Positions 41,919 to 57,089 of a DNA stretch of 64,000 nt are shown here, piece after piece. The DNA comes from Flavobacterium litorale. GTDB lineage: Bacteria > Bacteroidota > Bacteroidia > Flavobacteriales > Flavobacteriaceae. Location of the stretch: positions 959,501 through 1,023,500 of the forward strand of contig NZ_CP080429.1 in the NCBI RefSeq assembly GCF_019613795.1, written 5' to 3'. Under the pieces are notes generated by a model that worked only from the letters and a program-made list of their open reading frames with translations, did not search any database and had not been told where the DNA came from. Position numbers and translations under genes: made by a program. Within the stretch, counting starts at the first letter, position 1, and each line of letters opens with the position of its first letter.

Positions 41919-43463
41919 TTATGAAGTACTCTTGGTATTGTTTAACTTTTTAATTTGGTACAAGTCGTTGCGCCTGTCTTTTAGTATGCGTACGCTACCA
42001 TGTTCGTGTAGTTCTTTCAGTAAATCAATATCAACATCTACAATAAGCGTCATCTCGGTGTTGGGCGTTGTTTCAGCCTTAATCCCATTAGATGGAAACG
42101 AAAAATCAGAGGGTGTAAACACAGCCGTTTGCGCGTATTGTATATCCATGTTATTTACTTTTGGTAAGTTGCCCACACAGCCCGCTATGGCTACGTAACA
42201 CTCATTCTCTATAGCACGTGCTTGCGCGCAATGTTTTACGCGGGTATAACCGTTTTGCGTATCGGTAAGGAAAGGTACAAACAAAATATTCATTCCCTCG
42301 TCTGCCATTAAACGTGCCAGTTCGGGGAACTCCACATCATAGCAAATCATAATACCAATTTTACCACAGTCGGTATCAAAAGTCTGAATTTTGTCGCCTC
42401 CTTTCATGCCCCAATACTGTACCTCGTTGGGTGTAATGTGTACTTTAGTATACATTTCCGATGTTCCGTCGCGTTTGCATAAAAAGCCCACATTATATAG
42501 GTTGCCATCCTCCATATACGGCATACTACCTGTAATAATATTGATGTTGTATGATATTGCCATTTCCTGAAAACGCTTTTGTATAGGGTCGCAGTAACGC
42601 GCAATTTCACGTATGGCATCGGCTTCGCTCAGGTGGTTAAAGTCTGCCATAAGTGGTGCAACAAAAAGCTCGGGGAATAGTGCAAAATCGGAACCGTAGC
42701 CCGAAACGGCATCAATAAAAAACTCGGCTTGTTCAAATAAGGCCTCTACATTGGCAAGTGGTCGCATTTGCCATTGTACCAACCCGAGCCTTATGGTGCT
42801 TTTACGAGTGTTTATTAGTTTTGGGCTTTTATCGTAATAAATATTATTCCACTCCATCAATACGGCATACTCCTTAGAGCTGGTATCGCCCTCAAGGTAA
42901 TTGCGCATTAATTTTATTACGTGGAAATCGTTACTGATTTGAAACGATAATACAGGGTCGTGTACCTCTTTTAGGCGTACTTTTTCGATGTATTCTTTTG
43001 GGGAGTATTCGTCGGCATGTGCCGTATAGTTGGGTATGCGCCCCGCAAATATGATGGATTTTAGGTTGAGCTGCTCGCACAATTCTTTTCGCATATCATA
43101 CAGCCTTCTGCCCAGCCTAAGCCCACGGTATTCGGGGTCTATAAAAACATCAATACCATATAATATTTCGGCATCGTAGTCGTGTGTATTAAAAGTGTAC
43201 TTACCTGTAATGGTTTCGTAATTATGTATGCTAGTAGCTTTTTTGTAATCTACAATAAGTGATAGGGCTGCGCCTACCACCTTGCCATCTACTAATACAA
43301 CAAGCTGCCCTTCGGGGAATATATTTAGGAGTTTTTTTATTTCTTTTTCTTGCCAGTAGGCTTGCTCTAGTTCGCCATAGGCGTGTTGCATAGAAAGCTT
43401 TAACTGCTTATAATCTTCTATCTTCAGGTTACGTAATTCAACCTTATTAATTTCTATTTGCAT
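41919..43463 (-). CDS. GNAT acetyltransferase / carbon-nitrogen hydrolase fusion
   Basis: The 514-residue protein fuses an N-terminal GNAT domain (about 1-215, with IDVFIDPEYRGLRLGRRLYD as its acetyl-CoA motif) to a nitrilase-type amidohydrolase. The hydrolase triad is visible: E in FALFPELFVAPL, K in MYTKVHITPNE and C in GIMICYDVEFPE. The fusion is widespread in Bacteroidota and Proteobacteria. A joint amide-forming and amide-cleaving role has been suggested, but no substrate is established. It seems to be the first gene of a two-gene unit with the epimerase-like gene. Confidence 0.92.
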   Translation of the reverse strand: MQIEINKVELRNLKIEDYKQLKLSMQHAYGELEQAYWQEKEIKKLLNIFPEGQLVVLVDGKVVGAALSLIVDYKKATSIHNYETITGKYTFNTHDYDAEILYGIDVFIDPEYRGLRLGRRLYDMRKELCEQLNLKSIIFAGRIPNYTAHADEYSPKEYIEKVRLKEVHDPVLSFQISNDFHVIKLMRNYLEGDTSSKEYAVLMEWNNIYYDKSPKLINTRKSTIRLGLVQWQMRPLANVEALFEQAEFFIDAVSGYGSDFALFPELFVAPLMADFNHLSEADAIREIARYCDPIQKRFQEMAISYNINIITGSMPYMEDGNLYNVGFLCKRDGTSEMYTKVHITPNEVQYWGMKGGDKIQTFDTDCGKIGIMICYDVEFPELARLMADEGMNILFVPFLTDTQNGYTRVKHCAQARAIENECYVAIAGCVGNLPKVNNMDIQYAQTAVFTPSDFSFPSNGIKAETTPNTEMTLIVDVDIDLLKELHEHGSVRILKDRRNDLYQIKKLNNTKSTS

Positions 43464-43867: not shown

Positions 43868-44632
43868 TTACCACGATGGTTTTTGCCGTAACAATGCTAT
43901 GGTACTTTCCAGTTGTGCCAGGCGTTGCTCCATTTCGCTGTTGTTATTAGGTAATGTATACCGAAACACATGTACTATTACCCACACACCTATAATAGCT
44001 GTAGTAGCAATAGCAACGGGTGCTACACCAGGGTGGTTGGCTTGCAGCACTACGGTATCGTCCTGATGGTTCATTTTTCTAAAATACAATGCATCGGCTG
44101 TAGCCACAAGCACCAGTTCGTTGTTTGTTTTTGCTATTTCGGTTGTTGGTACTTTGTTGCCTATTACAACATCGTTTGGTAAAAAACCATGTGCTCCGCC
44201 CGACATTGTTAAGTCGTCTATAACCAATGCCAGTTTATTATCACCGCTAACATGTGGTAAGTATAGGTGTGGTAGTTGTATGTTACTAATATTATTAGCA
44301 GCACCATATTGCGCTATAAAATCAGCTTTATTATCGTTTGTAATGCATACAATACCTTGTATGTTGTTACTTTTAGTCTCTTTTGGTACTACCGTTATTG
44401 CTTCGTTAAAGCGCAATAATTGGTTTACGGTAAGCTCTTTGGTAAGCAAATCCTCTATTGTAATACTAAAATGCTTAGCAATTTTTACTACGGTTTCTAG
44501 CTTGGGGTTACTGCGGTCTTCTTCGTATGCACCAAGTGTAGCACGCTTTAAATCAAAGAGTTCTGCAAATTCTTGCTGACTCATTCCGTGTACACTGCGT
44601 ATTTTTTTAAGGTTCTTTCCGAGCATCATCAT
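43868..44632 (-). CDS. XRE-family regulator with S24/LexA-like C-terminal domain
   Basis: Residues 5-62 form a Cro/CI helix-turn-helix (GMSQQEFAELFDLKRATLGAYE). Residues 90-225 resemble the S24/LexA-like fold common in Bacteroidota XRE regulators, ending in the typical hydrophobic IIGVWVIVHVF segment. The expected self-cleavage serine is not obvious (DDLTMSGG replaces GDSM), so proteolysis may be lost. A short coiled coil (EMEQRLAQLESTIALL) closes the protein. It is divergent from the YbjN-PspA-flotillin operon, with shared operator-like repeats between, and probably controls it. Confidence 0.85.
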   Translation of the reverse strand: MMMLGKNLKKIRSVHGMSQQEFAELFDLKRATLGAYEEDRSNPKLETVVKIAKHFSITIEDLLTKELTVNQLLRFNEAITVVPKETKSNNIQGIVCITNDNKADFIAQYGAANNISNIQLPHLYLPHVSGDNKLALVIDDLTMSGGAHGFLPNDVVIGNKVPTTEIAKTNNELVLVATADALYFRKMNHQDDTVVLQANHPGVAPVAIATTAIIGVWVIVHVFRYTLPNNNSEMEQRLAQLESTIALLRQKPSW

Positions 44633-44641
44633 AAAATATAT

Positions 44642-44726
44642 TTTGCTAATATTATTTGCAATTTAAAATTATATCTTTATATTTGTACTAACATTATTAG
44701 CAAATATAGTAATAATGCTAATATAA
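44642..44726. promoter_or_regulatory. Three operator-like repeats between XRE gene and PspA operon
   Basis: Copies of TTTGCTAATA(A/T)T occur at 44642-44654 (plus), 44692-44704 (minus) and, with one change, 44714-44726 (plus). They flank and cover the divergent -7 elements, which suits binding by the XRE regulator. Confidence 0.5.
44656..44685 (+). promoter_or_regulatory. Promoter of the YbjN-PspA-flotillin operon
   Basis: TTG at 44656-44658 and TATATTTG at 44678-44685, spaced by 19 nt, match the Bacteroidota consensus (TTG, 17-23 nt, TAnnTTTG). The predicted start near 44690 leaves a leader of about 150 nt. An inverse TATATTTG at 44701-44708 could serve the XRE gene. Confidence 0.6.
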
Positions 44727-44841
44727 TGAGTTTTTGAGGCTTAAAAAGATTTTTCTTTATTGTTAAAAACTATAGAAAACAATATTTGTAAGCCGTTAAA
44801 AAAAAAGCGAGTTTTATAAATTATTAATACCTATTGTAAAC

Positions 44842-45237
44842 ATGAAAGACTATTTTGGAGTGATTAAGGATTACTTGAATGAGCTTGAGCTTGAAATTAA
44901 ATACCAAAGCGAGAGCGAGGGCGTATTTATAGTAAGCAACGAGCAGGACGGTATCATTAATCTTATTATTTGTGTAGCGTATCCTATTGTTATTTTTGAG
45001 CAATATTTATTTGAGGTACAACCCGATGCCTATACTGTTTTTAAAGAACTGCTCCAAAAAAACCGCGATATTATTCACGGAGCTTTCGTACTGGATACTT
45101 CAGGTAGAAAAGTAATTTTTAGGGACTCGTTGCAACTCGAAAATTTAGACCAGAATGAGTTTGGTGCAACGTTAAATTCGCTCAGCCTATTGTTGAGTGA
45201 GTATTCGGAACAGATTATTAACTTTTCAAAAAATTAG
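44842..45237 (+). CDS. YbjN-like / type III chaperone-fold protein
   Basis: The 131-residue acidic protein matches the YbjN domain (type III secretion chaperone-like fold), with a central beta-sheet pattern GIINLIICVAYPIVIFEQY followed by amphipathic helices. No enzymatic motif is visible. YbjN proteins are linked to stress responses and may bind partner proteins. It is the first gene of the PspA-flotillin operon and ends 4 nt before the pspA start, so it is probably a small adaptor of the complex. Confidence 0.8.
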   Translation: MKDYFGVIKDYLNELELEIKYQSESEGVFIVSNEQDGIINLIICVAYPIVIFEQYLFEVQPDAYTVFKELLQKNRDIIHGAFVLDTSGRKVIFRDSLQLENLDQNEFGATLNSLSLLLSEYSEQIINFSKN

Positions 45238-45241
45238 AACG

Positions 45242-45958
45242 ATGAAATTTTTAAAACGATTATTTAAAATAGGACAGGCAGAGGTGCACCATGCTATTGA
45301 CGGTATTGAAGACCCTATTAAAATGACGGAGCAGGGCATACGCGATATGAAGCAGGATTTAGAGAAGAGCCTAGAAGCCCTAGCCCAAGTAAAAGCCATG
45401 AGCATTCGTGCCAATAACGAGGCAGAAGAGCATAACAGTAAAGCACAAGATTATAGCGAAAAAGCAATGTTGCTACTTAAAAAAGCCCAAAGAGGCGAAA
45501 TAGAAAGCCAAGAGGCAGACCGATTGGCCACCGAAGCTTTGGTTAAAAAAGAAGAGGCTTTAGCACATAAAGCACGTGCTGAAGGCGACAAGGAGCGTTT
45601 TGACCAAAATGTAGTACAAATGGAGGGCAATGTGCAAACCATTAAGCAAAATATAAACAAATGGGAAAACGAGCTTAAAATACTCCGCTCCCGCGTTAAG
45701 GTGGCAGATGCTACCAAAAGCCTTAACGAGCAAATGGCAAAAATTGATAGTAATGGTACCATATCGTTACTGGAGCGCATGAAAGAAAAGGTAGTACAAG
45801 AAGAAGCCCTTGCCGAAGCGTATGGCGAGATAGCCGATGCCACAAAATCCATAGATGCCGAGATAGATAGTGCTATAGATGTAAAAAAATCTAAAGCCAC
45901 TAATGAGCTAGAGCAGCTAAAAGCCCAAATGGGTATTAGCGATAGCAAAACCAAATAA
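45242..45958 (+). CDS. PspA/IM30 family protein
   Basis: The 238-residue protein starts at ATG 45242 (MKFLKRLFKIGQAEVHHAID), the usual PspA N-terminal amphipathic helix; an earlier codon in this frame lies inside the YbjN gene. The rest is long coiled coil of the ESCRT-III-like PspA fold, including DPIKMTEQGIRDMKQDLEKSL. PspA proteins polymerise on damaged inner membrane and remodel it. It lies directly upstream of NfeD-like and flotillin genes, so a membrane-maintenance unit is likely. Confidence 0.93.
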   Translation: MKFLKRLFKIGQAEVHHAIDGIEDPIKMTEQGIRDMKQDLEKSLEALAQVKAMSIRANNEAEEHNSKAQDYSEKAMLLLKKAQRGEIESQEADRLATEALVKKEEALAHKARAEGDKERFDQNVVQMEGNVQTIKQNINKWENELKILRSRVKVADATKSLNEQMAKIDSNGTISLLERMKEKVVQEEALAEAYGEIADATKSIDAEIDSAIDVKKSKATNELEQLKAQMGISDSKTK

Positions 45959-45975
45959 ATATACTTTAATAAATA

Positions 45976-46614
45976 ATGGAGGAATTAATAGAAATTTCTT
46001 TTTCGCCTGTAAATGCGTTTTTTACCATCATGTCCATCGTCATGGTTTTCTACTGGGTATTAGTAATAATAGCTGGTTTGGATCCCGATTTGTTTAGCGT
46101 TGAGTTTGATGCGGCAGATGTTGATGGCGAGTACGGCGTTGATGCCCATAGTGGGAGCAGTAGTTTCATGAAAATACTCGAGTACTTCAGTTTCGATGAG
46201 CTCCCAATGATGTTTATTATTACCATAGTGTTTTTTAGCATGTGGTTTTTAGGCGTAAACATCACGTACTATTTAGGCATCGAGAGTTCCCTCTTAGGGT
46301 TTCTATTACTCATTCCAAACCTTATCGTTAGCTTGTTTATAGTAAAATTAATTGCCAAACCTTTAGGGCGGTTATACAAAGTGGTAAACCACAAGGGCGA
46401 GCCAGAAATAGATTTTTTGGGTAGGCGGTGCAACGTACTAACAGCAGTAGCGCCAAATAAAACGGGTATGGTAGAGCTCACCGTAAACGGCGACCCTATA
46501 AAGCTATACGCCCGCAGCCATACAGACGAAAAAATTATGGCTGGACAACAAGCCGTTATTATAAAGGAAAGCGAGGATAAGCGATATTATCTTATTGAGA
46601 AATTTGATTATTAA
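45976..46614 (+). CDS. NfeD/YqiJ-like membrane protein with OB fold
   Basis: The 212-residue protein has three hydrophobic helices (about 10-33, 72-92 and 98-125) and a C-terminal OB-fold-like domain (FLGRRCNVLTAV, GMVELTVNGDPIKLYAR). This matches YqiJ/NfeD proteins, which accompany flotillins in bacteria and are thought to help build flotillin assemblies. It lies between the PspA and flotillin genes, 17 nt after pspA. Confidence 0.87.
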   Translation: MEELIEISFSPVNAFFTIMSIVMVFYWVLVIIAGLDPDLFSVEFDAADVDGEYGVDAHSGSSSFMKILEYFSFDELPMMFIITIVFFSMWFLGVNITYYLGIESSLLGFLLLIPNLIVSLFIVKLIAKPLGRLYKVVNHKGEPEIDFLGRRCNVLTAVAPNKTGMVELTVNGDPIKLYARSHTDEKIMAGQQAVIIKESEDKRYYLIEKFDY

Positions 46615-46754
46615 CCACCAACAAATTCCAACAACCATGATGTCCTTTTTAATTGCCATAATTACTCTCTCTATAAATATAATAGAGCAAGTAGTATAAT
46701 GCACCCCACAAACAACAATCAATAAAAATTAACAACCCATAAATCAAAAGTAAA

Positions 46755-48815
46755 ATGTTCGAAAATTCAGGAACCGTATTATTAATAGGTATCACTATAG
46801 CCATAATAGGTTTACTAGTATGGATTATATCTATGTACAAAAAAACCATACAAGGTAAGGTTATAGTACGTACGGGAGCAGGGGGTACCAAAGTGTTTTT
46901 TAACGCTGGGCTTGTAGTACCCGTATTACACAAAATGGAAATAATGGATATTTCTGTTAAAAAACTTGAGGTAGAGCGTACAGGGCTTAGCGGGCTTATC
47001 TGTAAAGATAACATCCGTGCCGATATTAAGGTAACCTTCTTCATCAAAATCAATAAATCAACCGCCGATATTATAAACGTAGCACAAACCATTGGTTGTG
47101 CCCGCGCATCGGAAATTGATGTATTGCGTAACCTGTTTGATGCCAAATTCTCCGAAGCCCTAAAAACAGTAGGTAAAAAATTCGATTTTATCGAGCTGTA
47201 CGAAGCCCGTAGCGAATTCCGCGAAGAAATTATCTCCATTATCGGAACCGACCTTAACGGTTATATTTTAGATGATTGTGCTATTGACGATTTAGAGCAA
47301 ACAGCATTAAGTTATCTAAAAAACGATAATATACTCGATTCTGAGGGTATCAAGAAAATTACCGAGCTTACCGCAGCGCAAAACATGAAATCGAACCTTA
47401 TCCGCAGGGACGAGGAAAAAACCATCCGCAAGCAAGATGTAGAGGCGCGCGAAGCCATTTTAGCATTAGACCGTCAGTTAGCTGAAAAAGAAGAAATACA
47501 AAAACGTGAAATTGCCAACATTAAAGCCCGTGAGGAAGCCGAAATTGCAAAAGTAAACGAAGAAGAACGCTTAAAATCGGAAACAGCACGCATTAGTACT
47601 ACCGAAAAAGTACAGGTAGCCGAAGAAAACAAAGACCGATTGGTAATTGTAGCTGCTAAAAATAAAGAGCGTACCGAAGCGGTAGAAACCGAACGTGTAG
47701 AAAAAGACCGTGCGTTGGAGCAAACCGAAAGAGAGCGTATTGTAACCTTAGCACAAATTGAAAAAGAAAAAGCGGTTGAGGTAGAGCGTAAAAACATCCA
47801 AAATGTAATTCGCGATAGGGTAACACTCGAAAAAGGAGTAGTACAAGAGCAGGAAAACATGAAGGATATTGAGGCATTTAAAACTGCCGATAGGGAGAAG
47901 AAAGTAGCGCTTACACTTGCCGAAAAGGAAAGTGAAGAACTGTATATAAAACGCTTAAAAGCTGCCGAAGCCGAAAAAGAAGCGGCGAAGCAAAGGGCAG
48001 AAGAAATTAATATTGATGCAGCAGCACGTATGGCAGCCAGTGAAAAAGATGCCGAAGCACGTAAGATATTGGCTGATGCCAAAGCGAAAGAAGATGCTAC
48101 TTTAGGACTCTCGGAAGCGCAGGTAATGCACGCCAAAGCTGATGCCAGCGAAAGAGAGGGTATTGTACAAGCGGTAGTTATCGAGAAAAAAGCACTTGCC
48201 GAAGCTGCAGGTATAAAAGCAAAAGCCGAAGCCAATAAGGAGCAAGGTGTAGCCGAAGCCGATGTAATAAAAGAGAAAGCCCATGCCGAGGCGAGTGGTA
48301 TAGAAGAGAAAGCCGAAGCAATGAAGAAACTTGACGGCGTTGGAAAAGACCACGAAGAGTTTAAACTACGACTGGATAAAGAGCTACAAGTAGATTTAGC
48401 AGAAATTAATATCCAGAAAGATATAGCCGACGCACAAGCTAGCGTAATAGGCGAAGCACTTAAAGCCGCTAAGATTGATATTGTGGGTGGCGAAACAATG
48501 TTCTTTGACCAAATTGTAGGTCAAATAACTAAATCGAAAGGCTTTGATAGGCTCGTAAACCACTCAGAAAATATTACCGAGATTAAAGACGCTATTTTAG
48601 GCGAAGGTGGCGAGGAAGGCGAGAACCTTATGGATCGTGTAAAAGGCTTTGCCGATAAATACAACATCTCATCCGAAGATATAAAAAACCTTACCATAGC
48701 AGGATTACTTATGGAGCTACAAAAACGCAGTAGCGATACCGAGGAGCAAGGCTTATTCTCCAACTGGTTGGATATGGCAAAAAACCTAGGTTTATCTAAC
48801 AAAAAGCTAGGATAA
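46755..48815 (+). CDS. Flotillin family protein (YqiK-like)
   Basis: Residues 7-27 form a transmembrane helix, followed by an SPFH/band-7 domain (about 30-210, with ADIKVTFFIKINKSTADIINVAQTI). Then comes a long Ala/Glu-rich coiled-coil flotillin repeat region (about 215-560) and a helical C-terminal tail. Flotillins form membrane scaffolds that organise lipid and protein domains. The 686 residues exceed the usual flotillin because of the long coiled coil, as in YqiK. The gene follows the NfeD-like gene after a 140-nt gap holding a possible tiny ORF. Confidence 0.92.
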   Translation: MFENSGTVLLIGITIAIIGLLVWIISMYKKTIQGKVIVRTGAGGTKVFFNAGLVVPVLHKMEIMDISVKKLEVERTGLSGLICKDNIRADIKVTFFIKINKSTADIINVAQTIGCARASEIDVLRNLFDAKFSEALKTVGKKFDFIELYEARSEFREEIISIIGTDLNGYILDDCAIDDLEQTALSYLKNDNILDSEGIKKITELTAAQNMKSNLIRRDEEKTIRKQDVEAREAILALDRQLAEKEEIQKREIANIKAREEAEIAKVNEEERLKSETARISTTEKVQVAEENKDRLVIVAAKNKERTEAVETERVEKDRALEQTERERIVTLAQIEKEKAVEVERKNIQNVIRDRVTLEKGVVQEQENMKDIEAFKTADREKKVALTLAEKESEELYIKRLKAAEAEKEAAKQRAEEINIDAAARMAASEKDAEARKILADAKAKEDATLGLSEAQVMHAKADASEREGIVQAVVIEKKALAEAAGIKAKAEANKEQGVAEADVIKEKAHAEASGIEEKAEAMKKLDGVGKDHEEFKLRLDKELQVDLAEINIQKDIADAQASVIGEALKAAKIDIVGGETMFFDQIVGQITKSKGFDRLVNHSENITEIKDAILGEGGEEGENLMDRVKGFADKYNISSEDIKNLTIAGLLMELQKRSSDTEEQGLFSNWLDMAKNLGLSNKKLG

Positions 48816-48846
48816 CCGCGAGTTTACTTGATTTTTTTAAATAATG

Positions 48847-48874
48847 CCTTCGGTATGCTTTGGCATACTGAGGG
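48847..48874 (+). terminator. Hairpin after flotillin gene (weak terminator or attenuator)
   Basis: A 12-bp stem (CCTTCGGTATGC with GCATACTGAGGG, two G-T pairs, TTTG loop) is followed by only a weak T-rich tract. The other bases of 48816-48968 show nothing assignable. Confidence 0.5.
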
Positions 48875-48968
48875 TTATCTTATCCTTAATTCCCAAATAG
48901 AGAGTGAAAAGGCAGGGTGTTCTGCTGTAAGCTTTTAACTTAACCTACCAACTAATTATTGCTATACA

Positions 48969-50729
48969 ATGAAGATAAAAAATATTAAAATAATAAATGT
49001 TAAAGGTATTGCTAATAGAACCTTTGATTTAAATCTTATTCCTAACAAGCCAAATATTCTTGTGGCTCCAAATGGTTTTGGTAAGAGTTCGTTCAGTATA
49101 GGCTTTGATTCACTCAAAAGGAACAAAATTGAATTAGATGAAAAAAATTACCATTTAAACGATAGTAATAATAAACCTGTCATTGAAATGACTATTGAAG
49201 ACATATCTGGAATTAAGAATTTATTGGCAAATGACACTACTAATATTATTTCTAATGAGTTTGATGTTTTTGTAATTAATAGTCAACTGATGGCTAAGGC
49301 AAAAAAAATGAATATTAGTGGAAATATCATAGTAAAGTCATCTTTAGAAATCTCACCAATAACTCTAATTAAAACAATACCTTCAAAAGTTCTATTTAGC
49401 TATAACGTTACAAAGGCAAGACAAGCTTTTGGAACAAATGGATTTATTTTATCTAATATAATAAGTGTTTTTAAATCAGCTTCTTTATTGCACTCTATTA
49501 TCAATGAAGTGAATTTTTCAAAATTCGTACAAGTAAAAACTTCAAGGACACTATCAATCCTTAAAGATGAAATAAACGAGAAAACAGGTACTAAGAAACA
49601 AATTAAAAGCTGGATAGAAGAATATAAGAAGGCTGAATTTGAAGATATATCAGAATTTAATAAGCTAGCGAAAATTTTACGAAATTTCGATGGAATCAGT
49701 ACTGATACTGAGAGCTATCTGGCTGCTTTTCAAGTAATAGAAACTGCTCTTTCTATGAAAGCAAATTTTCAAAAAGCAGCAAACTATGTTTTCTATCTTG
49801 ATGAAAAAGACTATTTTACTACAAGTATAAATGATTTTATTCCTGCAAATGTGCAAAAAAGATTTGACATTAAACCCAAAGTTTCTGGTTCAAGTCTAGT
49901 CATTGAATGGCCAAAGGCTCATGAAATTTCTAATGGGCAGAGAGATATTCTTTCTTTTATTGCTTTACTAATGAAAGCAAAAAGAAGTTTTAAAAAGCAA
50001 AACTGTATTCTGATAATTGACGAAGTTTTTGATTATTTGGACGATGCGAATTTAATAGCTTTCCAATATTTTGTGACAAACATGATTGAAGATATGAAAT
50101 CTAAGGGAAAGAATTTTTTCCCTATTCTGATGACGCACTTAGACCCTCTTTTTTTTCATAACAATTGTTTCAATAAACATAAATTGAAAGTAGCTTACCT
50201 TAAAGAAACTCCTTATCAGTCAAGCCAACATATAATTAACTTAATCAAAAAAAGAGGAGATTCTACAATACAACAAGATGTTGATAAACATCATTTTCAC
50301 TATTATCCAACTCCTGTCAGCATTGAGAATGAATTTGTAGCATTAGGTTTACCTAAGGCTTGGGGATGTTCTGAAAAATTTCACGAGTTTATAAATTTTG
50401 AAGTTGAAAAATATTTGGAAGATAAGAAGGACTATGATCCATTAGCAATTTGTTTTGGTGTAAGAGTGAAAGTAGAGGAATTAATCTATGATCAAATTAA
50501 AGATTCAGAAAAAAGACAAGAATTTTTAGATTTACATGGAACAAAAAAGAAGTTAGAATATTGTGAAAAAATCAGGCATTCAGTTCCTGATACTTTTTAT
50601 CTATTAGGCATTATATATAACGATGAACTTCACAGACATAAAGATGATGATAATGTAAGAGCAGTTGCCAATAAATTAGAAAACTTTGTCATAAAAAAAA
50701 TGATAAGCGGTATATTCTCTAAAACTTAA
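48969..50729 (+). CDS. SMC/ABC-type ATPase of unknown function
   Basis: The 586-residue protein is a single-chain ABC/SMC-class ATPase. The P-loop is P34-N-G-F-G-K-S41, an ABC signature (ISNGQRDILSF) lies near residues 320-330, Walker B with catalytic glutamate (LIIDEVFDYLDD) near 345-358, and an H-loop histidine (LMTHLD) near 390. Between P-loop and signature only a short helical region replaces the long SMC coiled coil. The last 190 residues form an unrecognised helical domain. Such Rad50/RecF-like ATPases often occur in anti-phage modules. It is AT-rich and sits between the flotillin and giant AAA+ genes, 12 nt before the latter. Function not assignable. Confidence 0.85.
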   Translation: MKIKNIKIINVKGIANRTFDLNLIPNKPNILVAPNGFGKSSFSIGFDSLKRNKIELDEKNYHLNDSNNKPVIEMTIEDISGIKNLLANDTTNIISNEFDVFVINSQLMAKAKKMNISGNIIVKSSLEISPITLIKTIPSKVLFSYNVTKARQAFGTNGFILSNIISVFKSASLLHSIINEVNFSKFVQVKTSRTLSILKDEINEKTGTKKQIKSWIEEYKKAEFEDISEFNKLAKILRNFDGISTDTESYLAAFQVIETALSMKANFQKAANYVFYLDEKDYFTTSINDFIPANVQKRFDIKPKVSGSSLVIEWPKAHEISNGQRDILSFIALLMKAKRSFKKQNCILIIDEVFDYLDDANLIAFQYFVTNMIEDMKSKGKNFFPILMTHLDPLFFHNNCFNKHKLKVAYLKETPYQSSQHIINLIKKRGDSTIQQDVDKHHFHYYPTPVSIENEFVALGLPKAWGCSEKFHEFINFEVEKYLEDKKDYDPLAICFGVRVKVEELIYDQIKDSEKRQEFLDLHGTKKKLEYCEKIRHSVPDTFYLLGIIYNDELHRHKDDDNVRAVANKLENFVIKKMISGIFSKT

Positions 50730-50741
50730 TCAAATTTAACC

Positions 50742-53700
50742 ATGAGTACACTGGAAGGCGGTACATACGAAATTATACAGGCACGTTTGGCAACCCAAAA
50801 GAACGATCTTTTGGAACGATTGCAACAGCTAAACCAAGCGCGTAAGGAGGTATTTGGCAGTATAGAAACCAAACTAATAGCCAACAACCGCATTATAACC
50901 CAAAACAACTGTATTCCTGCCGATATTGTTTCGGTAAACGACAAGTGCATACTCGGGTACAATGTACACTTTGGGTTACGTACCGATATAAAAGCTGAAG
51001 ATGTTTTTAGTATTTATGCTTACGAAGATGGCGATTTCCGCGAGGAATCACTCGATTATATTAATGACGAAACGTTCCAAACTGATTTCTTCAATCTATA
51101 CAAATATTATAGAGATACCAGTTTCCGTAAGTTTTTTATAGCAGGCAACTACCTGCATATGGTATTCCAGATTAGCGACAGAATATCGGACATAAAAACG
51201 TTTAAATGGCTTATTAAAGAGGATAGCCTAACGTATATAGACAACAGGAGCGACCACGAATATAAATTCCCGAAACAGCATGACTTTAGGTGGCAGGAAA
51301 CCACCCGCGATATGCAAAAGTATGGCGAGCATCCGCACGTTTCCATACTCGATAAAGTATTTGTAGAAACCGTTGGCGGAACGCTTACCATAAAAATTGA
51401 AGACAATACCGATACGGGTAAAGGTATTTATGATGAAGAAGTAATCCACGCCGACCAAACGCTGGATGATGGTAATTTTCAGTACGCCGATTTAGGTAAT
51501 ATCATCGCCCTGCGCATACAACCCTTTCAGGAAGACCCGCGTTACTTTATTTACAATCATAAACTACAGGAAGTTTGTAAAATAGATAGCCTCGAAACAT
51601 CGGCAATATTACTACCCGACGATCATGGGGTAATATTCTCCAACGGGTATTACCTCCAAACAGGCGAGTACAAAATATTTGAGAGTAGCCTCGAAAACCT
51701 ATTCTTTCAAAAACGTATTACATCGCCCAATGGCGAAGATTTTATGTACGTTTTTTACGAAGAAACACACGGGCAATATGTACTAATGTCGTATAACCTT
51801 ATTACCCGCGAGGTAATGACGCCGATTATCTGTAACGGTTTTACAGTATTAAAAAATGGCGCGTTAACCTACTTCCGTGCGGAGGATGCAGCTAGTAAAA
51901 GCCACTTGGTACAAATATGGCAAACCCCTTTTGTAAAAGCCGATAGTATGCCCTCGGAGCACAAGGACAGCTACATTTACAAAATAGGCAACAAGGACAT
52001 TGTAAAGGCCATGGCAGATTGCCAGGCTATTGTTACACTCCTTAACAAAGAGGACGATTACGACGGGTTGTATGTTGATTTAAATCGTTTATCGCAAAAC
52101 GTACTGGATGCCTACTACTGGATAACCAATACCGAAACATTTGCGCTTAACGTACCGCTTAGCGCGATAAAAAGTACCGCAAACGCTGCTATAGATGAGT
52201 TTGAAAAAGTAGTACAACTCCGCCAAAATGCTAAAAAAATTACAGAGGAGGTACAGCAAAAAGCCGAAAGCCTCTTCATCCAGATAAAAAGCTCACCGTT
52301 AGATGATATTGATGTTTTTGTAGCCGATTTGGCAGGATTACGTACCCTACGGGGCGAGGTAATCAGTTTAAAGGAAGTCCGTTACATTGATCATGACTTT
52401 ATAACTGAATTGGAAGCCGAAATTGTAGCGCAAACCGAAAGTATTTCGCAAAATTGCGTGCAATTCCTAATGAACGATAAGGCATTAGCCCCCTACCATG
52501 CACGCGTAGCCAAAAAGCAAGAGGCAATTGCCGATATTACTACCGTTACCGAAGGTAAAAAACTGCAAGATGAGGTAAACACTATTACGGGCGATTTGGA
52601 GATGCTAATTGACATTGTATCCAATTTAAATATAGAAGATACCTCTAAGTCCACCCATATTATTAATACCATATCGTTAATATTTGCTACACTCAACAGA
52701 GTAAAAGCCGATATAAAAAATAAAATATCGTCACTAGGCAGTAAAGAGGCAAAAGCCGATTTTGCTGCACAAATAAAACTGATAGACCAAAGTATTGTAA
52801 ATGCCCTCGATAGGGCTACAACACCCGAAAAGGCTGAGGAATTACTCAACAAAATATCGGTACAGCTTGAAGATGTAGAAGCCCGTTTTGCCGATTATGA
52901 GGAGTTTACAGGTGCCATTATCGAGAAAAGAGAAGAGGTGTACAATGCCTTTGATGCCAAAAGAAGCAGCCTAGTAGAAGCCCGTAATAAAAAAGCGGTA
53001 GCTATAGAGAGTGCTTCGAGCAGAATATTAAAAAATGTAGCTTCCAAAGCCTTAACCTTTAAATCGGCAGAAGAGATAAACGGTTATTTTGCTTCTGATT
53101 TGATGATTGCCAAATTACGCGATTTAGTACAGCAACTCATCGACCTTGACGATACAGGCAAAGCTGAAGCGATAGAAACCGCACTAAAATCGGCACGCGA
53201 AGATGCGCTTCGTAAATTAAAAGACAAGCAAGAGCTGTATGAGGATGGCGAAAACATTATCCGTTTTGGGAAACACAAATTTGCTGTAAACAAACAACCG
53301 CTAGACCTTACCATTGTATATAAAAACGGTACGCTAAACTACCATTTAACAGGTACCGATTTTTACCAAGAATTGGAGGACGAAACCATGCTTTCGTCTA
53401 AAAAATATTGGAGTCAGGAACTCGTTTCCGAAAACGATGCGGTGTATAGGGCTGCCTTTTTAGCCTATAAAATATTTAGAAACAATACACCCAATGCACT
53501 TTTTGAAATGACAGATGAAAATCTGGAAAAATTAGTAGCCGAAGAAACATCAAAGAATTATACCGAAGGCTATACAAAAGGGGTGCACGATGCCGATGCG
53601 TTTAAACTATTAAAAACGTTAGTAGCTAAACATCATAATTTAGGATTACTCCGCTACGAGCCTACTACACGTGCTTTTGCCCAGTTTTTTTGGTATGGTT

Positions 53701-55595
53701 TGGAGGACGATGCTCGTACCACACTCAACAGTAAAATAAAAGCTTCGGGGGGTGTTTTGGCGGTGTTCCCCAACAGCAAAGAGTTCGATTATATTGTAAC
53801 AGAACTACAGCAACAACTAGAAGCCTATTTGCAGCATACCGCTTTTAGTAAAGGGTTAAATAGTAATACTAAAAATGCAGCACATTACCTTTTTGAGGAA
53901 TTAAAAAGTGATGATGCTTTTACCGTAAGCCACAAAGCGGCGCAATTAGCCGAAAGTTTCTTTAAAATGCTGGATAGCAAAGGGGCAAGCGTAGCCTTTA
54001 GGCACAATATTGATAACGCACCCGATAAACAAAGTGGCATACAACTGGCTGCGCAATGGGTAGCCTCGTACCTTGTAGAAACAGCGCAGGAGCAATACGA
54101 AGATTATTTATACGAAATTACTGCCCTGCTACTATACAGGCACGAATCGGCAGAGAATATAGTAGCCATAGAACCCGACGAGGTTATAACGGGGCTTGCA
54201 GGGGCGCACCCTACGGTAACTAATGGTACGTACAACTTCCATTACCATACGTTTACCCGTTTACTAAGCCATTATTACGATAACGAAGTACCTGCCTTTA
54301 ACCGTTTTAGAGAGGCGCGCCATACCCTGACAGTTACCTTAAAAGAGCAATTACGCTTAAACGAATTTATGCCCAAAGTACTAACCTCGTTTGTGCGTAA
54401 TAAACTGATAGACCAAGTGTATTTGCCCCTATTTGGGGACAACCTTGCCAAACAATTGGGTAGCGCAGGCGAAAACCGCCGTACCGACCGCTCTGGGATG
54501 CTGTTATTGGTATCGCCACCAGGGTATGGTAAAACGACCTTAATGGAGTATTTGGCGAACCGATTGGGGCTAGTATTCATGAAAATAAACGGACCTGCTA
54601 TTGGGCACGATATTACTTCGGTAGATCCTGCTTCGGCAACCAATACCGCAGCCCGCGAAGAACTGAAAAAACTCAACCTAGCCCTCGAAATGGGGAATAA
54701 CGTAATGTTGTATCTGGACGATATCCAACATTGTAGTCCTGAGTTTTTACAGAAATTTATTTCGCTTGCCGATGGTACCCGTAAAATAGAGGGGGTATAT
54801 AACGGGCAACCCAAAACGTACGACATGAAATCGAAAAAGTTTTGTGTTATTATGGCGGGTAACCCGTATACCGAAACAGGCGAGAAGTTTGCCATACCCG
54901 ATATGCTTGCCAACCGTGCCGATATTTATAACTTGGGTGATGTAATAGGCAGTACTAGCGAATTGTTTGAACTGAGCCTTATCGAGAATGCATTAACATC
55001 TAACCCCATACTGGCAGGTATTATGGCTAAAAATAGCGATGATTTGTACCCGTTAATCAAAATGGCAACCACAGGGCAACGCGATGGTTTTGAGCTAAAA
55101 GGTAATCACAGCAAGCAGGAGATAGAAACTTATATTTCGTTGCTGGATAAGGTACTAAAAGTACGTGATGTAGTGCTAAAAGCCAATGCAGCTTACATTG
55201 CTTCTGCGGCGATGGAAGATGCCTACCGTACCGAGCCATCATTTAAATTGCAGGGTTCGTACCGTGATATGAACAAATTGGTGGCTAAAATAGTACCTGT
55301 TATGAATGATGATGAGATAGATACACTATTACTATCGCATTACCGTAACGAAACCCAAACCCTTACCAGTGCTGCCGAAGCCAACCTATTAAAGTATAAA
55401 GAAATGACCGAGCAGCTCTCGGAAGAAGAAAACCAGCGTTGGCAAACTATAAAAGAAACTTTTGTAAAGAATAACAAGTTAAAAGGCTTTGGTAACCAAA
55501 ACGAAATGGCGCAAATGCTTTCGCAGATTATGGAATTTACCGACCATATTGAGGGCATAAAAGATATCCTACGAAAAGGATTAGAAACAAAGTAA
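50742..55595 (+). CDS. Giant AAA+ protein of the 'DNA repair ATPase' type
   Basis: This 1617-residue protein matches the family annotated as DNA repair ATPase. Residues 1-450 are mostly beta-rich with no known catalytic motif. A long helical/coiled-coil region spans about 470-860. A middle region of unknown fold follows. One AAA+ module lies near residues 1240-1480, with Walker A SPPGYGKTTLMEYL (about 1257), Walker B MLYLDDIQHC and a sensor-1-like VIMAGNP. The DNA-repair name rests on weak evidence. Its place at the end of the PspA-NfeD-flotillin operon suggests a membrane-associated remodeller instead. It ends 5 nt before a strong terminator. Confidence 0.85.
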   Translation: MSTLEGGTYEIIQARLATQKNDLLERLQQLNQARKEVFGSIETKLIANNRIITQNNCIPADIVSVNDKCILGYNVHFGLRTDIKAEDVFSIYAYEDGDFREESLDYINDETFQTDFFNLYKYYRDTSFRKFFIAGNYLHMVFQISDRISDIKTFKWLIKEDSLTYIDNRSDHEYKFPKQHDFRWQETTRDMQKYGEHPHVSILDKVFVETVGGTLTIKIEDNTDTGKGIYDEEVIHADQTLDDGNFQYADLGNIIALRIQPFQEDPRYFIYNHKLQEVCKIDSLETSAILLPDDHGVIFSNGYYLQTGEYKIFESSLENLFFQKRITSPNGEDFMYVFYEETHGQYVLMSYNLITREVMTPIICNGFTVLKNGALTYFRAEDAASKSHLVQIWQTPFVKADSMPSEHKDSYIYKIGNKDIVKAMADCQAIVTLLNKEDDYDGLYVDLNRLSQNVLDAYYWITNTETFALNVPLSAIKSTANAAIDEFEKVVQLRQNAKKITEEVQQKAESLFIQIKSSPLDDIDVFVADLAGLRTLRGEVISLKEVRYIDHDFITELEAEIVAQTESISQNCVQFLMNDKALAPYHARVAKKQEAIADITTVTEGKKLQDEVNTITGDLEMLIDIVSNLNIEDTSKSTHIINTISLIFATLNRVKADIKNKISSLGSKEAKADFAAQIKLIDQSIVNALDRATTPEKAEELLNKISVQLEDVEARFADYEEFTGAIIEKREEVYNAFDAKRSSLVEARNKKAVAIESASSRILKNVASKALTFKSAEEINGYFASDLMIAKLRDLVQQLIDLDDTGKAEAIETALKSAREDALRKLKDKQELYEDGENIIRFGKHKFAVNKQPLDLTIVYKNGTLNYHLTGTDFYQELEDETMLSSKKYWSQELVSENDAVYRAAFLAYKIFRNNTPNALFEMTDENLEKLVAEETSKNYTEGYTKGVHDADAFKLLKTLVAKHHNLGLLRYEPTTRAFAQFFWYGLEDDARTTLNSKIKASGGVLAVFPNSKEFDYIVTELQQQLEAYLQHTAFSKGLNSNTKNAAHYLFEELKSDDAFTVSHKAAQLAESFFKMLDSKGASVAFRHNIDNAPDKQSGIQLAAQWVASYLVETAQEQYEDYLYEITALLLYRHESAENIVAIEPDEVITGLAGAHPTVTNGTYNFHYHTFTRLLSHYYDNEVPAFNRFREARHTLTVTLKEQLRLNEFMPKVLTSFVRNKLIDQVYLPLFGDNLAKQLGSAGENRRTDRSGMLLLVSPPGYGKTTLMEYLANRLGLVFMKINGPAIGHDITSVDPASATNTAAREELKKLNLALEMGNNVMLYLDDIQHCSPEFLQKFISLADGTRKIEGVYNGQPKTYDMKSKKFCVIMAGNPYTETGEKFAIPDMLANRADIYNLGDVIGSTSELFELSLIENALTSNPILAGIMAKNSDDLYPLIKMATTGQRDGFELKGNHSKQEIETYISLLDKVLKVRDVVLKANAAYIASAAMEDAYRTEPSFKLQGSYRDMNKLVAKIVPVMNDDEIDTLLLSHYRNETQTLTSAAEANLLKYKEMTEQLSEEENQRWQTIKETFVKNNKLKGFGNQNEMAQMLSQIMEFTDHIEGIKDILRKGLETK

Positions 55596-55600
55596 ACTAA

Positions 55601-55640
55601 AAACACCTGCAAGGTTTTTAAAACCTTGCAGGTGTTTTTT
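55601..55640. terminator. Strong bidirectional terminator ending the PspA-flotillin operon
   Basis: AAACACCTGCAAGGTTTT and its perfect reverse complement form an 18-bp stem with T and A runs outside. It serves the giant AAA+ gene and the convergent glycine-zipper gene. Confidence 0.9.
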
Positions 55641-55674: not shown

Positions 55675-56139
55675 TTATATAACATTGCCCTGTTTTTTAG
55701 CTTCTGCATCTTTTTTGGCACCGTAAGCTATTCCGAGTGCAATACCCATTCCCATTCCAATAGATATTCCTAGGCTTATCCCTATAGTTGGGTTAATTGC
55801 TATACCAATAGGCATTCCTATTGCTATACCTAAACTTATCCCCAAACTCATTCCTATGGCGGTATAATATTTTTCGGTAGTAAAAGAAAATTCGTTTTTT
55901 AAGAATGTCTTAAATTCAGTAAGTTTTTTACTGTAGTACTTTTTTCTGTTTTCCGTTGGCATATCCAAATGCAGCGAAGTAAGCTTTTCCTCTATTTGTT
56001 GGAGCTGCTCTTTGGTTAGCTCCTTTTCTTTTAAGGAAATTAGTATCCCTGTAAAAGAACTGTAAACTTTTTTCTCCGTTTTATTCGTTGTCTGTAATGA
56101 TAAGTTATCTAATAATTCGGTAGCCTCGTTTAAACGCAT
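55675..56139 (-). CDS. Glycine-zipper protein of unknown function
   Basis: I recognise no named family. The N-terminal 90 residues are charged and helical. Residues 92-145 consist of a repeating G-x-x-(I/L)-G pattern (GMSLGISLGIAIGMPIGIA and onward), a glycine-zipper membrane segment seven or more turns long. The C-terminus is lysine-rich. Such zippers pack helices tightly in membranes or form pores. The gene lies opposite the end of the PspA-flotillin operon, but nothing ties it to that system. Confidence 0.75.
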   Translation of the reverse strand: MRLNEATELLDNLSLQTTNKTEKKVYSSFTGILISLKEKELTKEQLQQIEEKLTSLHLDMPTENRKKYYSKKLTEFKTFLKNEFSFTTEKYYTAIGMSLGISLGIAIGMPIGIAINPTIGISLGISIGMGMGIALGIAYGAKKDAEAKKQGNVI

Positions 56140-56186: not shown

Positions 56187-57089
56187 CTAAAAATATACCT
56201 CCTTTGCCACTCGGTACGTATTGGCATGCGCTTCTATAATAATTTTTATATCGGGGCTATAACCACCGCCCATACTGCACTGTACGGGTATGCCCAGTTT
56301 TTGGCATAGGTTCAATACAAAAGTGTCACGCTCTTTACAGCCTTCTACACTACAACCGAGTTTGCCCAATTTATCGGATGCTAAAATATCTACACCGCTC
56401 AGGTAAAAAATAAAGTCGGGTTTATGGTTGTCAATCAATTTTGGCAATGTTTCTTCTAAGATGGTTAGGTACTCATCATCACCTGTATTATCTCCCAGAG
56501 CAATATCCAAATCAGACGTTTCTTTCTTAAAAGGGTAGTTGGTTTTACCGTGCATACTAAAGGTAAATACAGCATCATTATTTGCAAAAATTTCGGCAGT
56601 ACCATTCCCCTGGTGCACGTCGAGGTCTACAATTAGTATGCGTTTCGCTTTTTTGTTTTGCAGTAGGTAGTGTGCTGCTGTAGCTTGGTCGTTTAATAAG
56701 CAAAAAGCCTCACCATGGGTACTATAGGCATGGTGCGTGCCACCTGCAATATTAAAGGCAATACCTTTTTGCAAGGCTTGTTCGCATCCCCAAATGGTGC
56801 CTTGCGCAATGCGCAATTCACGCTCTACCAACTCCGCCGAAAGCGGAAAGCCTATTTTACGTGCCGCTCGCGCATCTAATGTAAGGTTAAGTAAATCATC
56901 TACGTACACTGTTTGGTGCACGCCCAGTATGTATTGCATATCGGGCATATTGGGTGCATAAAACGCCTTTTCAGTTATCGTGCCCTCGTGTATAAGTTGT
57001 TGGGGTAGCAACTCGTATTTTAACATCGGAAAACGATGCCCTTCGGGTAACGGGTGTTTGTATATCGGGTGAAAAGCAATGGGAAGCAT
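56187..57089 (-). CDS. Histone deacetylase-family (acetoin utilisation-like) protein
   Basis: The 300-residue arginase/deacetylase-fold enzyme has zinc-site residues in DLDVHQGNGTAEIF and the active-site histidines in GGTHHAYSTHGEAFCLLND. The tyrosine-containing end (QCSMGGGYSPDI) is normal, although the catalytic tyrosine position is only approximate by eye. Bacterial members remove acetyl groups from proteins or small amines such as polyamines. It stands alone, with no acu genes nearby. Confidence 0.92.
   Translation of the reverse strand: MLPIAFHPIYKHPLPEGHRFPMLKYELLPQQLIHEGTITEKAFYAPNMPDMQYILGVHQTVYVDDLLNLTLDARAARKIGFPLSAELVERELRIAQGTIWGCEQALQKGIAFNIAGGTHHAYSTHGEAFCLLNDQATAAHYLLQNKKAKRILIVDLDVHQGNGTAEIFANNDAVFTFSMHGKTNYPFKKETSDLDIALGDNTGDDEYLTILEETLPKLIDNHKPDFIFYLSGVDILASDKLGKLGCSVEGCKERDTFVLNLCQKLGIPVQCSMGGGYSPDIKIIIEAHANTYRVAKEVYF

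Follow-up and report, generated by a model that had tools for sequence, protein, structure and literature searches.

The 64,000-nt stretch of Flavobacterium litorale DNA analysed here (hereafter the window; contig NZ_CP080429.1, positions 959,501–1,023,500, from a 2.73-Mb genome in a single contig) contains an operon whose central products are a YqiK-like flotillin and a giant AAA+ protein of the DUF3686 family (Table 1). An XRE-family regulator is transcribed divergently from genes for a CesT/Tir-like protein, PspA/IM30, a YqiJ/NfeD-like membrane protein, the flotillin, an extra ATPase and the AAA+ protein. All open reading frames (ORFs) named by a first-pass annotation of the window were recovered at their positions, as was the strong terminator that closes the operon 3′ of the AAA+ gene. 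For PspA, the ATG at 45245 was taken as the start rather than the GTG at 45197, where the mechanical ORF opens.

The small protein encoded next to pspA had been called YbjN-like; this identity was dropped, as YbjN matched below the Pfam cut-off (E value 0.0015) and PF22550 (CesT_Tir_1) matched far more strongly. The flotillin returned no Pfam match on its own, and Band_7 was matched in 2/28 of its relatives; the comparison of its family profile with the Escherichia coli K-12 yqiK product (hhalign, E value 4.9e-39), together with its N-terminal hydrophobic segment, nevertheless upheld its identification. The YqiJ/NfeD-like assignment was likewise sustained by the family profile (E value 6.2e-8 against the E. 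coli K-12 yqiJ product), though the window protein alone gave a weak YqiJ_N match (E value 0.09). Sequence searches against solved structures returned weak matches for these two proteins (for YqiJ, YuaF 2k14, E value 0.027), general AAA motors only for the AAA+ protein and nothing for CesT_Tir_1.

Table 1. Features of the operon and its regulatory region (window coordinates)
Feature	Position	Strand	Evidence or remark
XRE-family regulator, helix-turn-helix (HTH) plus variable, degenerate S24-like C-terminal part	43868–44632	−	Pfam HTH_3, E value 2.8e-11; alignment of 24
Conserved operator-like site TTTGCTAATNNTATTTGCA, exact	44642–44660	+	
Bacteroidota-type promoter pattern TTTG-N19-TANNTTTG	44655–44685	+	
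Weaker operator-like site	44686–44704	−	
CesT/Tir-like chaperone-fold protein (CesT_Tir_1)	44842–45237	+	PF22550, E value 1.6e-51
PspA/IM30	45245–45958	+	PF04012, E value 3.3e-36; ATG start
YqiJ/NfeD-like membrane protein	45976–46614	+	Family profile versus E. coli YqiJ; four hydrophobic windows
YqiK-like flotillin (SPFH)	46755–48815	+	Family profile versus E. coli YqiK; one N-terminal hydrophobic segment
Flotillin tail motif IDIVGGE, candidate docking site	48474–48494	+	
RecF/SMC-type extra ATPase, private insertion outside the system	48969–50729	+	No counterpart in other loci
Giant DUF3686 AAA+ protein, 1617 residues	50742–55595	+	PF12458, E value 2.2e-179; DUF7902; AAA
N-terminal all-beta ring, residues 44–394	50871–51923	+	WD40-like propeller by model
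AAA+ motor module, residues 1203–1559	54348–55418	+	
Walker A	54522–54536	+	
Walker B Asp-Asp	54717–54722	+	
Strong terminator, both-way capable	55599–55639		19-pair stem, T run on either strand

Conservation of the flotillin–AAA+ pair with and without PspA

The AAA+ family model alone detected the protein in 6/40 relatives (own genome included), 10/395 genomes of the phylum and 21/249 related genomes sampled from the genus, together 31 distinct genomes, all of whose neighbourhoods were examined. The flotillin gene lies directly upstream of the AAA+ gene, on the same strand, in all 31, and YqiJ is likewise present in all 31, while PspA and CesT occur in the operon in 25. The synteny of YqiJ, flotillin and AAA+ is therefore beyond chance. 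A wider set of 43 loci (13 of the 31, 19 loci found by sequence similarity and 11 of 12 annotated records; two are duplicates and L025 breaks off inside the AAA+ gene) contained flotillin in 43, YqiJ in 42, PspA in 33, CesT in 32 and the XRE regulator in 31 (the contig of L018 stops before the XRE position); a second set comprised 17 loci. Wherever the AAA+ gene was present at a locus examined, flotillin adjoined it, and the pair is kept at loci from four phyla. Loci from proteus, vibrio, photobacterium, halomonas, deinococcus, nonomuraea and streptomyces encode flotillin and AAA+, and all but one also YqiJ, with no PspA within about 9 kb. DUF3686 was found in 0/14 control genomes, Bacillus subtilis among them. 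Some copies of the operon are located on plasmids; on pQBR103 (L039, 986–14190), DUF2170–PspA and polyamine-type genes are followed in one run by genes for YqiJ-like, SPFH and DUF3686 AAA+ proteins.

Within Flavobacterium, the AAA+ protein and a full-length flotillin occur in exactly the same 21 of the 249 genomes. A hypergeometric value computed for co-occurrence in this sample takes no account of kinship and was not counted as evidence. PspA scored above the cut-off in 15 genomes and CesT_Tir_1 in the same 15, all within the 21 (one PspA match, in G504, and two CesT matches, in G454 and G618, fell below the cut-off and were not counted). All 15 PspA matches lie inside the operon by coordinates, and PspA never occurs in this sample without AAA+ and flotillin. 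The remaining six genomes encode AAA+, flotillin and YqiJ, with no PspA above the cut-off anywhere in the genome. A different SPFH protein, matching the first 170 positions only, was detected in fifteen other genomes and one more match was marginal; the AAA+ protein occurs in 0/16 of these.

In a tree of 54 AAA+ proteins, the six PspA-less genomes group in a single well-supported clade that sits within PspA-bearing Bacteroidota, although the quick method behind the tree flags a possibly false joining of long branches close to this clade. As the six form one clade, the PspA-less state represents about one event, and the pattern suggests that XRE–CesT–PspA was lost once; several separate losses within Flavobacterium were rejected on the same grounds. 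Shortened operons of this type have been proposed to use PspA encoded elsewhere (PMC11237479); in these six genomes, no PspA was found elsewhere with our model. In two of the six loci (L010, 15589–17256; L081, 3744–5411), a formate–tetrahydrofolate ligase-like gene was noted by eye upstream of YqiJ.

As AAA+, flotillin and YqiJ persist in these six genomes without any PspA above the cut-off, PspA is not an obligate client. The main reason for regarding the AAA+ protein as a partner of flotillin is that the pair persists without PspA in one clade, while PspA never occurs without the pair in the genus sample. The first-pass annotation had proposed the AAA+ protein as a membrane-associated remodeller of PspA or flotillin assemblies; gene context supports the link to a membrane scaffold, and the choice between the two putative partners can be narrowed towards flotillin. 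The protein could alternatively act as a disassembly motor of PspA polymers, analogous to Vps4 acting on ESCRT-III, with flotillin as a mere membrane anchor. PspA is an ESCRT-III relative present in the operon in most of the genomes, and the ESCRT analogy has been drawn for this operon type (PMC11237479). Vps4-type AAA proteins carry an N-terminal MIT domain, however, whereas no MIT domain was matched in the AAA+ protein (Pfam), which has a propeller model in its place, and we consider this alternative unlikely.

The distribution of the operon raises a further alternative, namely that it is chiefly a response to phage or envelope attack that is often gained and lost. Its presence is patchy in both the genus and phylum samples, some copies are plasmid-borne, and PA3728–PA3732 were raised in every phage-infected Pseudomonas aeruginosa sample (PMC12041424). 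None of the core proteins, however, firmly matches any known defence family, no copy of the AAA+ gene was found in 50,697 phage records, and the phenotypes reported for the P. aeruginosa operon concern biofilm, rhamnolipid, virulence and osmotic stress (PMC2587700, PMC10948618), leaving such a role slightly less probable still than the ESCRT-like one.

The DUF3686 AAA+ protein and the flotillin tail

The AAA+ protein combines DUF3686, DUF7902 and AAA in its Pfam architecture; its closest counterpart among the relatives compared is that of Flavobacterium salilacus (86 % identity). The N-terminus is predicted to form a propeller by a structural model backed by structural matches; the N-terminal alignment comprised 28 of 29 locus rows (L016 omitted), the window protein and seven proteins. 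The ten best matches to the predicted model of the motor are MoxR-type activases of the CbbQ/NorQ kind. MoxR-type AAA+ proteins usually carry an Asp-Glu Walker B and have a VWA partner gene nearby. The window protein resembles CbbQ/NorQ in its predicted motor fold but is far longer and has an Asp-Asp Walker B, and no VWA match was found among the ten window proteins scanned (Pfam). Naming the motifs as we take them to correspond to those of other AAA+ proteins, Walker A is kept in 169/169 DUF3686 proteins, Walker B is Asp-Asp rather than Asp-Glu in all 169, the Arg-finger-like motif LANRAD occurs in 164 and a strict sensor-2-like pattern was matched in 33.

Since Walker B has Asp where Glu is usual, the protein might instead serve the scaffold as a structural clamp or sensor gated by nucleotide, with hardly any ATP hydrolysis. 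The invariance of Asp-Asp alongside the retention of Walker A and LANRAD fits such a role, but the whole motor is strongly conserved across four phyla and Asp can sustain slow hydrolysis, so that this possibility, too, appears improbable, about as much so as a Vps4-like motor.

The name 'DNA repair ATPase', carried by Pfam and source records, had been doubted by the first-pass annotation, and our data agree with that doubt. Apart from the name of DUF3686 itself, no nucleic-acid or repair domain scored above the Pfam cut-off in the protein, RuvB-like matches are weak and amount to general AAA+ similarity, and the linkage to flotillin is constant across loci; a function in DNA repair is thus very improbable. 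The source of the name could not be traced, as a literature search for 'DUF3686' returned no paper.

The flotillins linked to the AAA+ gene share a feature near the C-terminus, where Gly-Gly follows a short hydrophobic stretch in 28/28 aligned sequences, with Glu or Asp directly after it in 27 (IDIVGGE in the window). A strict form of this pattern was found in 51/56 distinct AAA+-linked flotillins versus 0/6 flotillins without the AAA+ gene, the latter set being only E. coli YqiK and five Flavobacterium proteins. The motif may represent a docking site, or it may be a mere mark of the subfamily.

Regulatory region and insertions

The regulator had been described as S24-like; its HTH was confirmed, whereas the S24 match fell below the Pfam cut-off. 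Across an alignment of 24 sequences, the HTH is well conserved and the C-terminal part widely variable. A LexA-like self-cleaving regulator was rejected, as the position of what we take to be the catalytic Ser motif is occupied by Thr in the window protein, while its counterparts have Ser, Glu or different residues there. A 19-base operator-like site was detected, with up to three mismatches, in 28/30 XRE–CesT intervals, the exceptions being L040, on a Hymenobacter plasmid, and L050. The pattern gave 55 sites in 9,701 bp versus 45 in 694,029 bp, a comparison that is descriptive given that the pattern was derived from the same intervals later counted, near-palindromic sites score twice, once per strand, and some loci are almost identical to one another. 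A cleaner result comes from the whole genome, in which the window site is the sole exact copy; sites with two mismatches number three there, as in the control. The exact site overlaps the TTTG of a promoter pattern that presumably reflects the Bacteroidota consensus and that was found in 16/30 intervals. As the site is exact only once in the genome, overlaps the promoter pattern and recurs, with up to three mismatches, in XRE–CesT intervals, the regulator seems to serve this operon specifically.

The extra ATPase, correctly placed by the first-pass annotation, proved not to belong to the system. It resembles RecF/SMC ATPases and has at least 2076 relatives, and no other locus carries a copy (0/43 and 0/17); the contexts of two relatives were unrelated. 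Among 199 Flavobacterium genomes, counting that of the window, four carry a full-length copy, one of these copies being broken by an internal stop, and PADLOC matches to mad3, mad8 and PtuA were weak. The flotillin–AAA+ gap in which it lies (48816–50741) is shorter than 200 bases in 41/60 loci (duplicates counted). The gap is occupied in F. salilacus by an HNH gene (PF01844, E value 3.4e-8) and in L087 by a transposase of the IS200 type (PF01797, E value 1.1e-25), with L011 similar by eye; L052 and Leeuwenhoekiella have ORFs that we take to be GIY-YIG-like, and L050 one presumably DUF559-like. Varied mobile or nuclease-like genes have been taken up by this gap across lineages (among the loci listed, L019, L087, L011, L052, L016 and L050), and it looks like a tolerated insertion point.

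Genes for a GNAT–nitrilase protein (41919–43463) and a histone-deacetylase-like protein (56187–57089) flank the operon in the window and in several related Flavobacterium loci, indicating that the operon occupies a constant position within these relatives. A convergent gene (55675–56139, − strand) encodes a small protein that contains a hydrophobic repeat rich in glycine and has no family match above the cut-off.

Related systems and proposed mechanism

The make-up and general role of the operon were already proposed in 2024: PMC11237479 groups the same operon type, including propeller and shortened forms (example ANH61663.1), and proposes chaperone-like and ESCRT-like membrane roles. As in the CesT/Tir–PspA–band-7 group defined there, the window has CesT/Tir next to pspA, a YqiJ/YuaF-type protein, a flotillin of YqiK profile and a DUF3686 protein with a propeller model; it additionally has the XRE regulator, the operator-like site and the private ATPase insertion. 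In the accessible text of that paper, the motor type is unassigned and the terms 'MoxR' and 'Walker' do not occur. Literature searches on YqiJ, flotillin and ATPase operons returned this paper only, those on MoxR, flotillin and AAA+ returned none, and nothing else on the operon was found from 2024, as judged by title and the start of the abstract; PMC10936438 concerns ESCRT systems of archaea. Band 7 and NfeD proteins are also described as PspA neighbours in PMC9239133.

The P. aeruginosa bac genes form one operon, bacABCDEF (PA3732–PA3729 plus two downstream genes; PMC10948618), in which PspA-like BacB, NfeD-like BacC and flotillin BacD are encoded in the same order as in the window, the two downstream genes being co-transcribed with them (PMC10948618, PMC13086221). 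The systems differ in that BacA is a DUF2170 protein with a fold similar to type III secretion system chaperones (PMC10948618), where the window has PF22550, and in the sigma-54 promoter proposed for bac; DUF2170 (pQBR103 protein) gave no match to the PF22550 profile and was not among the hits of the window protein. A bacA mutant shows BacB–F at levels 6.1- to 13.5-fold higher (PMC10948618), and PA3731 has been tied to biofilm formation and hyperosmotic stress (PMC2587700). PA3729 turned up in pull-downs at a level close to that of the control (PMC8926400), an observation given no weight here. PA3728 is listed as an ATPase (PMC8190622). P. aeruginosa has one DUF3686 protein (P0217), which may be the product of PA3728 and identical to BacE. 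In B. subtilis, PspA–YdjGHI likewise joins SPFH and PspA in one operon, where the SPFH protein recruits PspA to the membrane (PMC8581546), but there is no DUF3686 AAA+ protein there. The AAA+ protein of the window has neither a peptidase domain match nor a hydrophobic segment. HflK/C–FtsH is an SPFH membrane scaffold that works with an AAA+ motor, and differs from the window system in these two respects.

Gene order, co-occurrence, predicted folds and the conserved operator-like site form the evidence for our interpretation, to which we assign a probability of about one half: the locus would be a membrane-stress operon of two modules, a flotillin/YqiJ/AAA+ core and a CesT–PspA add-on, under XRE control. 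It is probably a membrane-scaffold machine. By comparison with relatives, flotillin and its YqiJ/NfeD-like partner would form a membrane-anchored SPFH scaffold, on which the cytosolic AAA+ protein may dock via its propeller and coiled coil, the MoxR-like motor then rebuilding or dismantling the scaffold or clients held in it. CesT_Tir_1 could hold or chaperone PspA until the scaffold delivers it to damaged membrane, on the model of YdjI in B. subtilis and BacA in P. aeruginosa, and the XRE protein would repress the divergent promoter at its dedicated operator until relieved by a signal.

Several observations weigh against this interpretation. What speaks for function is indirect throughout. 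The genomes are related and the PspA-less six are a single clade, and the PspA add-on could be the main business of the operon where present. Foldseek alone places MCM, RuvB, Lon and others level with MoxR, Pfam scores for AAA and AAA_5 are near-equal in the AAA+ protein, and its Asp-Asp Walker B may mean slow or no ATP hydrolysis. Deletions of SPFH genes in P. aeruginosa, moreover, were reported without pronounced phenotype (PMC13086221).

More tentatively, and with odds somewhat against it, DUF3686 may define a soluble AAA+ class dedicated to SPFH scaffolds in at least four phyla, in which a MoxR-type motor with an Asp-Asp Walker B would act on a flotillin/YqiJ cage, with or without PspA, its propeller gripping the Gly-Gly-acidic tail of YqiK-like flotillins.

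The part of this two-module proposal worth testing is a flotillin-dedicated MoxR-like AAA+ protein able to do without PspA. The role of bacterial flotillins is an open question, and we know of few with an energy-using partner outside HflK/C–FtsH. On these data, the label 'DNA repair ATPase' used in databases seems misleading. What these flotillins do becomes testable with two or three proteins, given a constant AAA+ partner of probable motor type, a tail motif as candidate docking site and naturally occurring operons free of PspA.

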